Below are positions 33,068 to 41,820 of a stretch of 64,000 nt of DNA, one piece after another (the stretch's first letter is position 1; each line of letters opens with the position of its first letter). The DNA is from Campylobacterales bacterium (GTDB taxonomy: Bacteria > Campylobacterota > Campylobacteria > Campylobacterales > Sulfurimonadaceae). Location of the stretch: positions 1-64,000 of the forward strand of contig JAJRQV010000011.1 in NCBI GenBank assembly GCA_024280035.1, written 5' to 3'. Below the pieces are notes generated by a model, which did no database searches, had not been told where the DNA came from, and worked only from the letters and a program-made list of their open reading frames with translations. The position numbers and the translations under genes were made by a program.

Positions 33068-33207
33068 AAGAAGCCTAGTCGATATAATTTAACTTATAAA
33101 AGAAGAAAACTATCTCTCTTGTTTTATAAGGTATCCCCTTGTATAAAGAGGCATTATAGCTAAAGAATAAAAATAATCCAGTAGCTTTTATGTTTTTATT
33201 ATTTAAG

Positions 33208-33357
33208 TCCCATTTTATGTGGGTTTAAAATATTGTTAGGGTCAAAACTAGCCGTGGCGGTTTCGCACAGCGAAAAGTTTCTAAAGAACTTTCAAAGAGG
33301 ATAAAAGTCTTACTTTAATCCCATTTTATGTGGGTTTAAAATATTGTTAGGGTCAAA
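33208..33357. repeat. Duplicated 3' end of glcD flanking an AAAAC-AGCC element
   Basis: A 39-bp perfect direct repeat occurs at 33208-33246 and 33319-33357. The second copy is the real 3' end of the FAD oxidase gene; the first is an orphan copy beyond its stop. Both continue to encode Gly-Leu-Lys-stop, using different codons. Between them at 33244-33280 lies the dispersed element AAAACTAGCCGTGGCGG with the hairpin TCGC-ACA-GCGA, then GTTT. The repeat period is 111 bp. See the findings for the matching structure at nth. Confidence 0.85.
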
Positions 33358-34692
33358 CGCCATTTTAATAGAATTAAAAAGATTCATCTCTTCATCTGTA
33401 AATGCCATCTTCATATAAGGTGCTTTGGCAATTCCAATACCGTGCTCACCACTTAGTGTTCCGCCTAAGTCAATAGTTGCTTGAAAAACTTCTTCAATGG
33501 CTTCATAAGCAATTTTAACCTGCTCAGGATCTGAACCATCTACCATAACATTAGTGTGCACATTTCCATCTCCTGTGTGACCAAAACAGGGGATGTTAAT
33601 ACTATACTTATCAGCAATAGCATAGAACTTTTCAAGAAGTTCAGGCAAAACTGCTCTTGGAACGGTAACATCTTCATTAAGTTTTTTAGAACCATAAACA
33701 GAAAGAGCAGGGCTTGCATTTCTTCGTGCAAACCAGAGGTCTGCTGCCTCTTTGTCATCTTTAGCACGTTTAAACTCAGAACAACCATTTTCTTTAAAAA
33801 CTTCTTCAATTTTATTGAGTTGAAAGTCTAAATCATCTTCTAAGTTACCATCAACATCTGTAACTAAAATAGCGCCTGCTTCTGTTGGTAATCCCTTATT
33901 AAAAGTTTGCTCAACGGCACGAATAGTGAGGTTATCTAAGAACTCCATAGCCACAGGGGTAATTCCACTCGCCATCGTCTTGTAAACGGCTTCCATCGCT
34001 TGTTTTACGGAAGGAAAAATACCCATAGCTGTTTTGGTTAACTTAGGTTTAGGAATTAGTTTCATGGTTACTTCAGTGGTTACTGCGAGTGTTCCTTCTG
34101 AAGCGATTAAGATACCTGCAATGTTATACCCTGCCACATCTTTAATGGTACGTTTACCGGCTTTGATGATGTCTCCATTAGGAAGAACAGCACGAATAGC
34201 CATAACATAATCTTTAGTGATTCCATACTTAGCGGCACGCATTCCACCTGCATTTTCGTTTACATTTCCACCTATGGTTGAGTAGTCTTGACTTGCTGGA
34301 TCGGGGGGATAAAATAGACCCACTTCTTCGACTGCTTTTTGTAAATCCATATTAATGACACCGGGTTGAACAATGGCAACCATGTTTTTCATATCAATTT
34401 CTAAGATTTTATTCATATGCTTTTCAAGAGCAAGGACAATCCCTCCCTCAGAAGGTAAGGCACCGCCAGTAAAACCAGAACCTGCTCCCCGAGGAACAAT
34501 AATGATTTTGTACTCATTACAGTGTTTTAAAATAGCTGAGATATCTTCTTCATGGCGAGGAAAAATAACCGCATCGGGTTCAAAATGTTCACGTGTTGCA
34601 TCATATGAGTAGGCAATAAGATGTGCCTTATCTTCAAATATATTTTCGTCACCAACAATGTTTTTAAAATATTCGTAGTGTTTTTTATCCAT
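33310..34692 (-). CDS. glcD: FAD-linked oxidase, GlcD/D-lactate dehydrogenase type
   Basis: This 460-residue flavoprotein oxidises a 2-hydroxy acid (glycolate or D-lactate). The PP-loop FAD domain carries PRGAGSGFTGGALPSEGGIVLAL and TIGGNVNENAGGMRAAKYG, and the C-terminal domain has CFGHTGDGNVHTN and GTLSGEHGIGIAK. Length fits GlcD. It shares one base with the upstream PgbA-like gene, so they form an operon; the same pair is neighbouring in Campylobacter as I recall. The 3' end exists twice because of the element next to it. Confidence 0.92.
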   Translation of the reverse strand: MDKKHYEYFKNIVGDENIFEDKAHLIAYSYDATREHFEPDAVIFPRHEEDISAILKHCNEYKIIIVPRGAGSGFTGGALPSEGGIVLALEKHMNKILEIDMKNMVAIVQPGVINMDLQKAVEEVGLFYPPDPASQDYSTIGGNVNENAGGMRAAKYGITKDYVMAIRAVLPNGDIIKAGKRTIKDVAGYNIAGILIASEGTLAVTTEVTMKLIPKPKLTKTAMGIFPSVKQAMEAVYKTMASGITPVAMEFLDNLTIRAVEQTFNKGLPTEAGAILVTDVDGNLEDDLDFQLNKIEEVFKENGCSEFKRAKDDKEAADLWFARRNASPALSVYGSKKLNEDVTVPRAVLPELLEKFYAIADKYSINIPCFGHTGDGNVHTNVMVDGSDPEQVKIAYEAIEEVFQATIDLGGTLSGEHGIGIAKAPYMKMAFTDEEMNLFNSIKMAFDPNNILNPHKMGLK

Positions 34693-39250: not shown

Positions 39251-40537
39251 ATGATGTCAGTTATAAAGATATTTAAAAAGATTTGTACGATTCCACACTG
39301 CTCCTTTGAAGCTGAAAATTTAGAAAAATACATTATTGAAAAAGCTGAATCTTATGGTTATTCGGTACAAAAAGATAAGCTTGGGAATATCCTTTGTTCA
39401 CATCAAGAGGCAAATCTTATTTTACAATCGCATTATGACATGGTCTGCATTGGACAGGCACCGAATTTAGAACTGTATGAAGAAGAGGGTTTCTTAAAAG
39501 CAAAAGAGAGCTCTTTAGGTGCAGACAATGGTATTGGTATGGCTATGATGCTCTCTTTAATGCAAGAAAAAAAGAAAGTGTCTTGTCTTTTTACGGCAGA
39601 TGAAGAGGTGGGGCTTATTGGTGCTCAAGGTTTAGAGTTATATATCAAAGAAAAATGGATGTTAAACCTTGATACTGAAGAAGAGGGATATGTTTATATT
39701 GGTTGTGCAGGTGGGGCAGACATTATTGCTAAAAAAGCTTTACATTTTCAAGAAATTACTGAGGAGGTCAGCTCTTATGAGGTGATAGTTGATGGATTAG
39801 CAGGAGGTCACTCAGGAATTGATATTGATAAAAACATTCCTTCTGCTATTAAAGTCTTGAGCTCTTTTTTAGTACATATTCCTCATTATTTAATTCGTAT
39901 AGAAGGGGGAGAAAGACGTAACTCTATTTCAAAAAGAGCAAAAGCGGTAATTTCTGTACCAAAAGGTGTTATTGTTGATAATAATAGAGAAAATATTAGT
40001 ATTAAAAAACTTAAGGTTAAACAGACAAAGATGATTGATCAAGGGCACATGATTTCAGAAATGATTCATGCCTTTGCCCAAGGTGTACGTGCTGTTAATA
40101 AGGAATTAAATATTATTCAAAGCAGTATAAATCTTGCCCTTATTGAAACTACTGAAAAAGAGATAAAAGTAAGTTTAAGTGCACGTTCAATGGACTCTGA
40201 AGAACTCTTGGTTTTAGTTAATGAAACGCTGTGCTTTTTTAAGGCATTTGATTTTATGGCACGTTCCGAGGGTATGTATCCAGCATGGAAACCTGAGGTA
40301 AATGACTTCTCTTTAAAGGTACAAAAAATCTGTAAAAAACATTTTAAAGAAGCTGACTTCAGAGCCATACATGCGGGCTTAGAGTGTGCCATCTTAAAAC
40401 AACATTCACCACATTTAGATATTGTCTCTATAGGTCCCAATATTTATAATCCTCACTCCTCATGTGAATCTGTGGAGATGGCTTCAGTCGAACGTGTGTA
40501 TAATGCCTTAAAAGAGATTGTAAGGGAATGCTCATGA
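39251..40537 (+). CDS. pepD: Aminoacyl-histidine dipeptidase (peptidase D), M20 family
   Basis: This 428-residue cytosolic metallopeptidase cleaves Xaa-His dipeptides. Zinc-site motifs are LQSHYDMVC, the bridging ESSLGADNGIGMA and TADEEVGLIGA; the lid domain includes GGHSGIDI. The last metal ligand region is PHSSCESV. ATG 39251 or the next ATG is preceded by AAGGA. Its TGA overlaps ATG 40534 of the lipoprotein gene. The AAAAC-AGCC element starts right at its stop codon. Confidence 0.9.
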   Translation: MMSVIKIFKKICTIPHCSFEAENLEKYIIEKAESYGYSVQKDKLGNILCSHQEANLILQSHYDMVCIGQAPNLELYEEEGFLKAKESSLGADNGIGMAMMLSLMQEKKKVSCLFTADEEVGLIGAQGLELYIKEKWMLNLDTEEEGYVYIGCAGGADIIAKKALHFQEITEEVSSYEVIVDGLAGGHSGIDIDKNIPSAIKVLSSFLVHIPHYLIRIEGGERRNSISKRAKAVISVPKGVIVDNNRENISIKKLKVKQTKMIDQGHMISEMIHAFAQGVRAVNKELNIIQSSINLALIETTEKEIKVSLSARSMDSEELLVLVNETLCFFKAFDFMARSEGMYPAWKPEVNDFSLKVQKICKKHFKEADFRAIHAGLECAILKQHSPHLDIVSIGPNIYNPHSSCESVEMASVERVYNALKEIVRECS

Positions 40538-40986
40538 AAACTAGCCGAGGCGGTCTCAAAGAGAAGTTTATTTATAAAACTAGCCAAGGCAACCACAAAG
40601 TGAAACCTTATAGATTAAAAGCCTTACTGTTTTTATTAATAATTGCATTCTCAAGTGGTTGTGTCACTCTCGGAGTAGGTGCAGCTTCCGCCTTAGGCGG
40701 AAGCTATTATCTTTCCGGAGAGATTAAAGCTTCGTATCCAGTTTCAATTTATCATCTGTATGAGGTGACGCTGTATACCTTTGAAGAAGAGGGTATTAAA
40801 AGTACGTTAGTAAAAAATTCTAAAATTGATGCCGACATTGAGGGTGAATTTGATGATGGAGAAAAGGTAAAAGTACATATTTACTATAATAAAAAAGAAG
40901 AAGCGACCTTAGGTATTAGAATAGGAAGTATAGGTGACGAAAAAAGAAGTAGAGAACTTCTCAAAAGAATGCAAAGATATATTTAA
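40534..40986 (+). CDS. DUF3568-like lipoprotein with an in-frame repeat insertion
   Basis: ATG 40534 overlaps the pepD stop (ATGA). Residues 3-24 are encoded by a 66-bp insert made of two AAAAC-AGCC elements. Removing it gives MKPYRLKALLFLLIIAFSSG followed by the lipobox Cys, an ideal lipoprotein signal. With it, the signal has a long charged extension. A GTG just after the insert (40600) could instead start translation. The mature part (about 110 residues) resembles DUF3568 periplasmic lipoproteins. Whether the extended protein is exported is unclear. Confidence 0.75.
   Translation: MKTSRGGLKEKFIYKTSQGNHKVKPYRLKALLFLLIIAFSSGCVTLGVGAASALGGSYYLSGEIKASYPVSIYHLYEVTLYTFEEEGIKSTLVKNSKIDADIEGEFDDGEKVKVHIYYNKKEEATLGIRIGSIGDEKRSRELLKRMQRYI
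40537..40610 (+). repeat. Two tandem AAAAC-AGCC elements
   Basis: Copy 1 (40537-40570) reads AAAACTAGCCGAGGCGG, hairpin TCTC-AAA-GAGA, then GTTT. Copy 2 (40576-40610) reads AAAACTAGCCAAGGC, hairpin CAC-AAA-GTG, then AAACCTT. The 66-bp insert is bounded by TGAAA at 40535-40539 and 40601-40605, a possible target duplication. Confidence 0.8.
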
Positions 40987-40999
40987 ATTTTTACTACCC

Positions 41000-41055
41000 G
41001 CGTGATTAAAGGACTTAGAGATAATTTTTAATCCGTTAAATTTGTGTAATCATGC
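41000..41055. repeat. Imperfect hairpin with AATCCGTTAAAT word
   Basis: GCGTGATTA (41000-41008) pairs with TAATCATGC (41047-41055) with one wobble. The right arm contains AATCCGTTAAAT, the same word that opens the large inverted repeat at 49.36 kb. It lies between the lipoprotein and nth ends. Confidence 0.45.
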
Positions 41056-41075
41056 TGACTTAAAGCTCTTTTTAT

Positions 41076-41205
41076 TAAGCAAGTTTACGCAGGTTTAAAA
41101 CTCTTTGTAGTTTTACAAAACAAGCCGTGGCGGTCGCGAAGCGATGTTTCAGGCGAAGCCGCATAAGCAAGTTTACGCAGGTTTAAAACTCTTTGTAGTT
41201 TTACA
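41076..41205. repeat. Duplicated 3' end of nth flanking an AAAAC-AGCC element
   Basis: A 42-bp perfect direct repeat lies at 41076-41117 and 41164-41205 (period 88 bp). The second copy is the true 3' end of nth, with its stop; the first is an orphan beyond it. Between them (41117-41149) is AAAACAAGCCGTGGCGG with hairpin TCGC-GA-AGCGA and GTTT, then a second mini-hairpin GGC-GAA-GCC. The arrangement is the same as at glcD. Confidence 0.9.
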
Positions 41206-41820
41206 GTACGCTTGTAAAAAACATTCACTGTCACACTTAGGTCTTTGCGCTGTACAGATATAACGTCCAAAAAGTACCATTCCTTGATGGAGTTGATGCA
41301 GATTAGTTTTAAACTTTTTAGCCAGGGTGGCTTCTGTTTTTAAAGCCGTGAGGTCATCACTTAGACCTAAACGATGAGAGACTCTAAAAACGTGGGTATC
41401 TACTGCCATTAGATTCGCTTTAGTAAACTCAATCAGTACAACATTGGCTGTTTTTTGACCAACACCGCCTAGTGTCATAAGTTCTTTAGCTTCAAGTGGA
41501 ACTTCTCCATCATAAACCTCTACAACACGTTGTGCCATTTTGATGATATTTTTTGCCTTATTATTAAAAAATGAACAGCTGTGTATTAAGGCTATTACAT
41601 AATCTAAGTCAGCATTTCCTAAACTTAGGGGGTCAGGATATTTTTCAAAGAGAGCAGGGGTGATAAGATTTACCCGTTTGTCAGTACATTGGGCTGAAAG
41701 AGCCACAGCAATGACGAGTTCAAAGGCATTTGTATAATTAAGTTCAGTAACTGCTTCATCATATCTTTTGACGAATTCTTCTTTTATTTCTTCTATCTCT
41801 TTTTTAGTTGCTTTTTTCAT
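41173..41820 (-). CDS. nth: Endonuclease III
   Basis: This 215-residue base-excision repair glycosylase/AP lyase removes oxidised pyrimidines. The helix-hairpin-helix and catalytic Lys are in LGGVGQKTANVVL, and the catalytic Asp in AVDTHVFRVSHR. The C-terminal 4Fe-4S ligands read CTAQRPKCDSECFLQAYC; spacing is C-x6-C-x3-C-x5-C, one residue more than the usual x2. A TACAAT box lies six bases before ATG with no Shine-Dalgarno. The 3' end is duplicated downstream. Confidence 0.94.
   Translation of the reverse strand: MKKATKKEIEEIKEEFVKRYDEAVTELNYTNAFELVIAVALSAQCTDKRVNLITPALFEKYPDPLSLGNADLDYVIALIHSCSFFNNKAKNIIKMAQRVVEVYDGEVPLEAKELMTLGGVGQKTANVVLIEFTKANLMAVDTHVFRVSHRLGLSDDLTALKTEATLAKKFKTNLHQLHQGMVLFGRYICTAQRPKCDSECFLQAYCKTTKSFKPA

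Follow-up and report, generated by a model that had tools for sequence, protein, structure and literature searches.

A short folded repeat and duplicated gene ends at nth and elsewhere in a genus of Campylobacterales

The end of nth and the element within its repeat

The window, 64,000 nucleotides in length, forms contig C14 in G000, a draft genome of 2.5 Mb and 107 contigs with a completeness rating of 100%. It carries an intact gene on the minus strand (41173-41820) that we take, from knowledge of its sequence family, to be nth, encoding endonuclease III; the names galU, hemE and glcD used below are presumed in the same way. An earlier note on this DNA described a perfect 42-bp direct repeat with a period of 88 at the end of nth, and a repeat search found exactly this, 41076-41117 and 41164-41205 being identical at 42/42 positions, which far exceeds what chance would produce. 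As the note also had it, both copies consist of C-terminal codons of nth, the stop and 9 further bases, and the inner copy is the functional one, running continuously into the gene in the list of open reading frames and providing its end, with the outer copy left as an orphan.

The 46 bases between the two 42-mers make up a single copy of an interspersed element, which we call E and read in the direction AAAAC...GTTTC, here along the plus strand. The repeat copy to the left of E, the orphan at 41076-41117, is denoted X1, and the copy to its right, at 41164-41205, X2 (both in plus-strand coordinates). The core of E at nth, AAAACAAGCCGTGGCGGTCGCGAAGCGATGTTTC (41117-41150, plus strand), falls within a match at 41117-41155 to a covariance model built from eight other genomic copies (35 bits; E-value 2e-6 in the window), and is followed by a long-form tail, AGGCGAAGCCGCA (41151-41163, plus strand), which is also present in four other copies (L015, L051, L213 and L155). 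Rfam returned no gathering-score match in the window, and none with an E-value of up to 1 in 41050-41230. The same X1-E-X2 layout occurs at nth in the assemblies of two other species, G005 and, with a further insertion, G001, so an assembly error private to G000 is unlikely.

Fold and distribution of the element

E can be written as AAAACWAGCCRWGGCGGT, a variable hairpin and WGTTTC, roughly 35-50 bases in all, with a core, AGCCRWGGCGGT, that is almost invariant. Across 147 copies the consensus ends are AAAAC(T/A)AG and GTTTC, complementary to each other over 5 bp only (AAACW/WGTTT), and as a single strand E would fold into this short closing stem and two hairpins. At nth the stems are P1 (41118-41122/41145-41149), P2 (41124-41126/41129-41131) and P3 (41134-41137/41141-41144), a pairing supported by covariation in the 147 copies. 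We argue the structure from covariation because single copies do not stand out in folding energy, minimum-energy folding having given no significant z-score. The base after AAAAC pairs with the base before GTTT in 145/147 copies, as T-A in 71 and A-T in 68; the maximum in 2000 shuffles was 93. The left arms of the hairpin comprise 44 different sequences and pair fully in 125 of the copies, and the closing stem is kept through changes such as AAAAT...ATTT and AAAGC...GCTT. Likewise, the E copies at nth have changed sequence while their pairing stayed, the closing pair being A-T in G000 and T-A in G005 and G001, with hairpin arms that differ in each. The two stems point opposite ways as to strand, with 22 G.T against 7 A.C pairs in P3 but 8 against 12 in P1.

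We compared six genomes of the genus, a group of uncultured Campylobacterota: G000 and five congeners, one per species and all fragmented drafts. In G000 the pattern AAAACNAGCCNNGGCGG with up to 2 mismatches occurs at 29 places, against 2 for the reversed control. The covariance model (R1, eight copies) counts 42 copies of E in G000 and, for the five congeners, 80, 21, 14, 10 and 14, numbers that are tied to a small model whose E-values are rough. With a stricter pattern, other genera of the family and order gave 0-1 match per genome, which is the control level. An exact-pattern search of 84,980 genomes of named species gave 96 stretches. Campylobacterota records hold 43 of these (Arcobacter sp. 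NORP14, Sulfurimonas sp. UWMA-0129 and MAG313, Kmv12, LH_M16, GMC7, GMC1, 4559-240 and B24_G6), and the remaining matches are mostly single and spread over unrelated phyla. In viral contigs the exact pattern matched 16 times among 2.9 million, about the number estimated by chance for a degenerate 18-mer in so large a set.

Relatives of E were also seen in other Campylobacterota metagenome assemblies (L074, L078, L089, L094, L104, L121 and L128), where the tail is often GTTTCTGTGAAA as opposed to GTTTCTTTAGAA, a difference that suggests lineage-specific subfamilies; no long duplications were noticed in these copies. At seven loci (L026, L219, L099, L093, L237, L229 and L233) E is enclosed by a larger interspersed repeat common to loci of G000 and G001, which can be aligned in both orientations, is partly palindromic and contains CTTTCATTCGCGGTCGAAG. 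Two E-bearing stretches of G001 (L222 and L223) that resemble each other, with diverged 79-nt duplications and inverted self-similarity, are perhaps another larger repeat carrying E. A second mini-motif, AGAAGYAAARCGGACTTTAG, has four copies (L093 at 3063, L210 at 705, L212 at 846 and L234 at 769), against none in the reversed control, and directly adjoins E in L212 and L234.

Empty sites, duplications and their age

The earlier note had proposed an insertion that rebuilds the gene end, to be checked against relatives lacking the element, and the comparison bears it out. At nth, whose orthologues in four congeners are 82-87% identical, G002 and G003 have one gene end and lack E, as against E with the duplication in G000, G005 and G001. 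The glcD-like FAD oxidase gene of the window (33310-34692, minus strand) has a second copy of E at its end (33244-33286, plus strand, found by pattern and covariance model), set between an orphan copy of the gene end recovered by the flank test described below (X1, 33202-33246, plus strand) and the functional end (X2, 33314-33357, plus strand); the end is single in G003 and G005 and duplicated with E in G000 and G001. For galU the end is single in G002, G003, G004 and G005 and duplicated with E in G000 and G001, and for hemE it is single in G002, G003 and G005 and duplicated with E in G000. Thus two, two, four and three genomes, respectively, have single ends without E, and ends are double where E is present; neither a duplication without the element, which the note had named as counting against its reading, nor E with one end was seen at these loci. 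E-free relatives being single-ended and E-bearing ones double-ended at all four, E and the duplication arrive together, and E is mobile. The galU duplications of G000 and G001 measure 74-78 and 89 nt, with insertion sites 28 bp apart, and are two independent events of E plus duplication in one gene.

Not every insertion is of this form. Two tandem E units (40537-40611, plus strand) lie in frame directly after the ATG of a lipoprotein gene (40528-40986), with no long duplication, at a site that is empty in G001, G002 and G003. A pair of E units found at a start codon of G001 has none either. At the lipoprotein gene the pair adds a stretch of roughly 25 residues (KTSRGGLKEKF...) before the signal peptide.

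Across the family, we scored the best repeat between the 100 bases to the left of E and the 150 to its right, with its end fixed at E's first base and a score of at least 24 as the cut-off. Such anchored repeats flank 33/143 copies, compared with 1/441 AAAA anchors and 2/441 random anchors; tandem E arrays account for about eight of these, and copies of host sequence for the rest. The duplicated host sequence, X, lies to the left of a break between C and AAAA and spans 21-89 nt with no fixed ruler, and about three quarters of E copies have no detectable long duplication. That a 42-bp duplication is longer than transposons make, as the note had stated, is right in that it falls outside cut-and-paste lengths, and the variation among copies adds to this. 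The left junction of E is precise at (C)AAAA and the right junction is variable. AAA directly follows X2 in 18/24 cases, against a background of 4.6% (p about 1e-19), and the base before E is C in 49%, compared with 31% for AAAA runs generally (p = 3e-5). At nth the bases after X2 are AGTAC in G000 and AAAAC in G001, and from the latter the site may have first read C followed by AAAAC. Some repeats (L013, L132 and L226) begin inside the conserved GTTTC end of E.

All 19/19 duplications that could be assigned to a gene have that gene to the right of E, completed by X2, at its 3' end in 13 and its 5' end in 6; in one of them a further gene ends to the left. A duplicated stretch confined to the left of the break can rescue only right-hand genes, and this polarity together with purifying selection would predict the bias. 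An insertion within a gene can therefore be harmless, as a repair copy of the gene end comes along with it.

The perfect identity of the nth copies had been taken as a sign of recent origin, a reading that finds no support here because the insertion is common to three species (G000, G005 and G001) and the copies are homogenised within genomes. G000 and G005 have both boundaries in common at nth, where X1 and X2 agree at 42/42 positions within each genome and at 37/42 between the two; the glcD copies agree at 35/35 within each genome and 29/35 between genomes. Since they are identical inside each genome and differ between genomes, the X copies evolve in concert, and the nth repeat appears to be old rather than recent. 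Slippage or recombination between the direct repeats, 88 bp apart at nth, would most simply account for the homogenisation. The G005 nth locus has a partial further unit past the second copy, and longer arrays are found elsewhere (L015, L118 and L132). The note's alternative of a slippage-type tandem duplication is thus improbable as the founding event, E-free relatives being single-ended, and survives as a later step in which slippage probably expands and contracts the X-E-X unit.

Comparison with known elements and the route of insertion

How very small hairpin elements move, in bacteria and in mitochondria, is an old open question, as they leave few traces. E does leave a trace, in its variable duplications, its fixed polarity and the empty sites of relatives, which narrows the mechanism and makes it testable. 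In searches of the literature outside subscription journals we found no earlier report of an E-like element with a long gene-rebuilding duplication; E works like the small hairpin elements, but with such a duplication. Its nearest known kinds are the mobile hairpin elements of mitochondria, and REPs are nearest in setting. The GC clusters of yeast mitochondria show unit merging and a putative duplication of AG (2 nt, GC42), by a DNA or RNA mechanism that is unresolved (PMC4478555), and among the hairpin elements (RHE) of sponge and Allomyces mitochondria those of Allomyces were reported without flanking duplications (PMC2800124). Like these elements, E is a few tens of bp long, folded, non-coding and sporadic, its presence at orthologous sites varying from one relative to another as expected of the GC-cluster kind, and both diversify fast and have no known enzyme of their own. 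Unlike GC clusters and the Allomyces elements, it is bacterial, has duplications of up to 89 bp and rebuilds gene ends. We know of no sequence relation between E and the mitochondrial elements.

REP and REPIN elements are mobilised by RAYT (Y1) transposases (PMC3733652, PMC3116915). E resembles them in being bacterial, palindromic, interspersed and non-autonomous, and in a size range of 20-50 nt. It differs in that the foot of the 147-copy consensus lacks a GTAG or CGTC tag, in its long left-hand duplications and in that three of the six E-bearing genomes lack a Y1 domain. The MITEs of DDE transposons differ as well, having a fixed duplication of a few bp where that of E is variable and sometimes absent. 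Rickettsia palindromic elements, about 100-150 bp and so larger than E, share with it a palindromic form, small size and a place inside reading frames (in frame at 40537-40611 for E), and to our knowledge do not duplicate long target stretches. PARCEL coding repeats, a 25-residue protein repeat, are unrelated (PMC2996958), and the RepRanger paper offers only counts for Sulfurimonas gotlandica. Readings of E as an integron attC site or a CRISPR array were dropped by reasoning from the consensus and the variable repeat length.

We propose, at about even chances, that E is a small non-autonomous mobile element copied into its sites by microhomology-primed template switching that returns upstream. 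A 3' DNA end reading ...X-AAAA, at a nick or stalled fork, would anneal at the border of a donor E, to the sequence complementary to AAAAC, and be extended through E and a variable tail. It would then rejoin the recipient at no fixed position, often 20-90 nt behind its exit, and copy X again, giving X-AAAAC-E-tail-X-AAAA; later slippage between the direct repeats would expand or contract the X-E unit and keep the copies identical. The sequences themselves show that E is mobile, its target and polarity, the variable duplication gained jointly with it, the concerted evolution of the copies and the conservation of the pairing. We infer host replication or repair enzymes as the agents of switching, as we do the nature of the donor strand and the role of slippage. 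The absence of a length ruler, the fixed left and variable right junctions and the insertions without a long duplication fit a copying exit at AAAA with variable re-entry, and the repeats that start inside GTTTC are as expected if microhomology guides the return. Duplications would be seen mainly at gene ends because an insertion within a gene survives only if the re-copied X restores the end. Junction microhomology, variable copied lengths and templated duplication are features that E sites share with microhomology-mediated template switching (FoSTeS/MMBIR). That process copies arbitrary sequence; at E sites, unlike there, the insert is always the same structured element. Host enzymes alone leave unexplained why E, and not any AAAAC sequence, is copied, and no donor copy came to light for any insertion, a search by shared tails having given, among the matches listed, mainly other E copies.

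The conserved structure and the preference for a break between C and AAAA hint at a dedicated protein. A transposase or integrase specific for folded E, cutting between C and AAAA with a long, loose stagger and leaving the filled-in target site as the duplication, would account for the target preference, the precise left junction, the strongly conserved fold and the restriction of E to one genus within the family. We nevertheless consider it unlikely, since the target duplications of known DDE and Cas1-type integrases have a fixed length and HUH Y1 enzymes make none, as against 21-89 bp here and insertions with no long duplication, and since a domain search found Y1_Tnp (PF01797) in G001, G004 and G005 and not in G000, G002 or G003.

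A route through RNA seems somewhat less probable again: X-AAAA with a 3'OH would prime at the 3' end of a transcript complementary to E (target-primed reverse transcription), and a staggered second-strand cut would leave the variable duplication. Non-LTR retroposons have variable-length target duplications at short A-run sites, and E resembles them in both respects and in having one precise and one variable junction. Against this, reverse transcriptase RVT_1 (PF00078) is absent from G000, G002, G004 and G005, with one each in G001 and G003, and the RNA required is the E complement, whereas the wobbles of P3 lean to the E strand, those of P1 being inconsistent. Thus neither of the two enzyme families searched is common to all six E genomes, and G000 has neither although it is rated 100% complete.

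We regard it as very unlikely that E lay beside the gene first, that hairpin slippage duplicated the gene end and E in tandem, and that the outer E was then lost. Tandem E and X-E units do exist (L015, L118, L132 and L226) and the X copies evolve in concert, but at nth, glcD, galU and hemE the relatives with a single gene end have no E either, which contradicts this order of events at four loci, and most duplicated sites hold no remnant of a second E, so that exact loss must have recurred many times. An assembly or binning artefact might be suspected, as the compared genomes are drafts in fragments, most of them bear MAG in their titles and E arrays stand at the ends of some contigs. It is highly improbable given the same layout at the same site, with species-specific sequence, in three separately assembled genomes.

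Template switching is therefore ranked first and a dedicated enzyme next, in view of the poor fit to a fixed stagger and the absence of RVT_1 from four genomes and Y1 from three. More tentatively, and we hold this to be doubtful, E may spread with no dedicated enzyme, its fold exposing an AAAAC that captures 3' ends at breaks between C and AAAA, host copying returning upstream and so rebuilding the gene, and the hairpin being renewed by copying that preserves pairing.

Several E copies without a direct duplication (L194, L099 and L052) show short inverted repeats on either side of E, such as TTTCGGGC ... GCCCGAAA, which looks as though copying had sometimes returned on the other strand.
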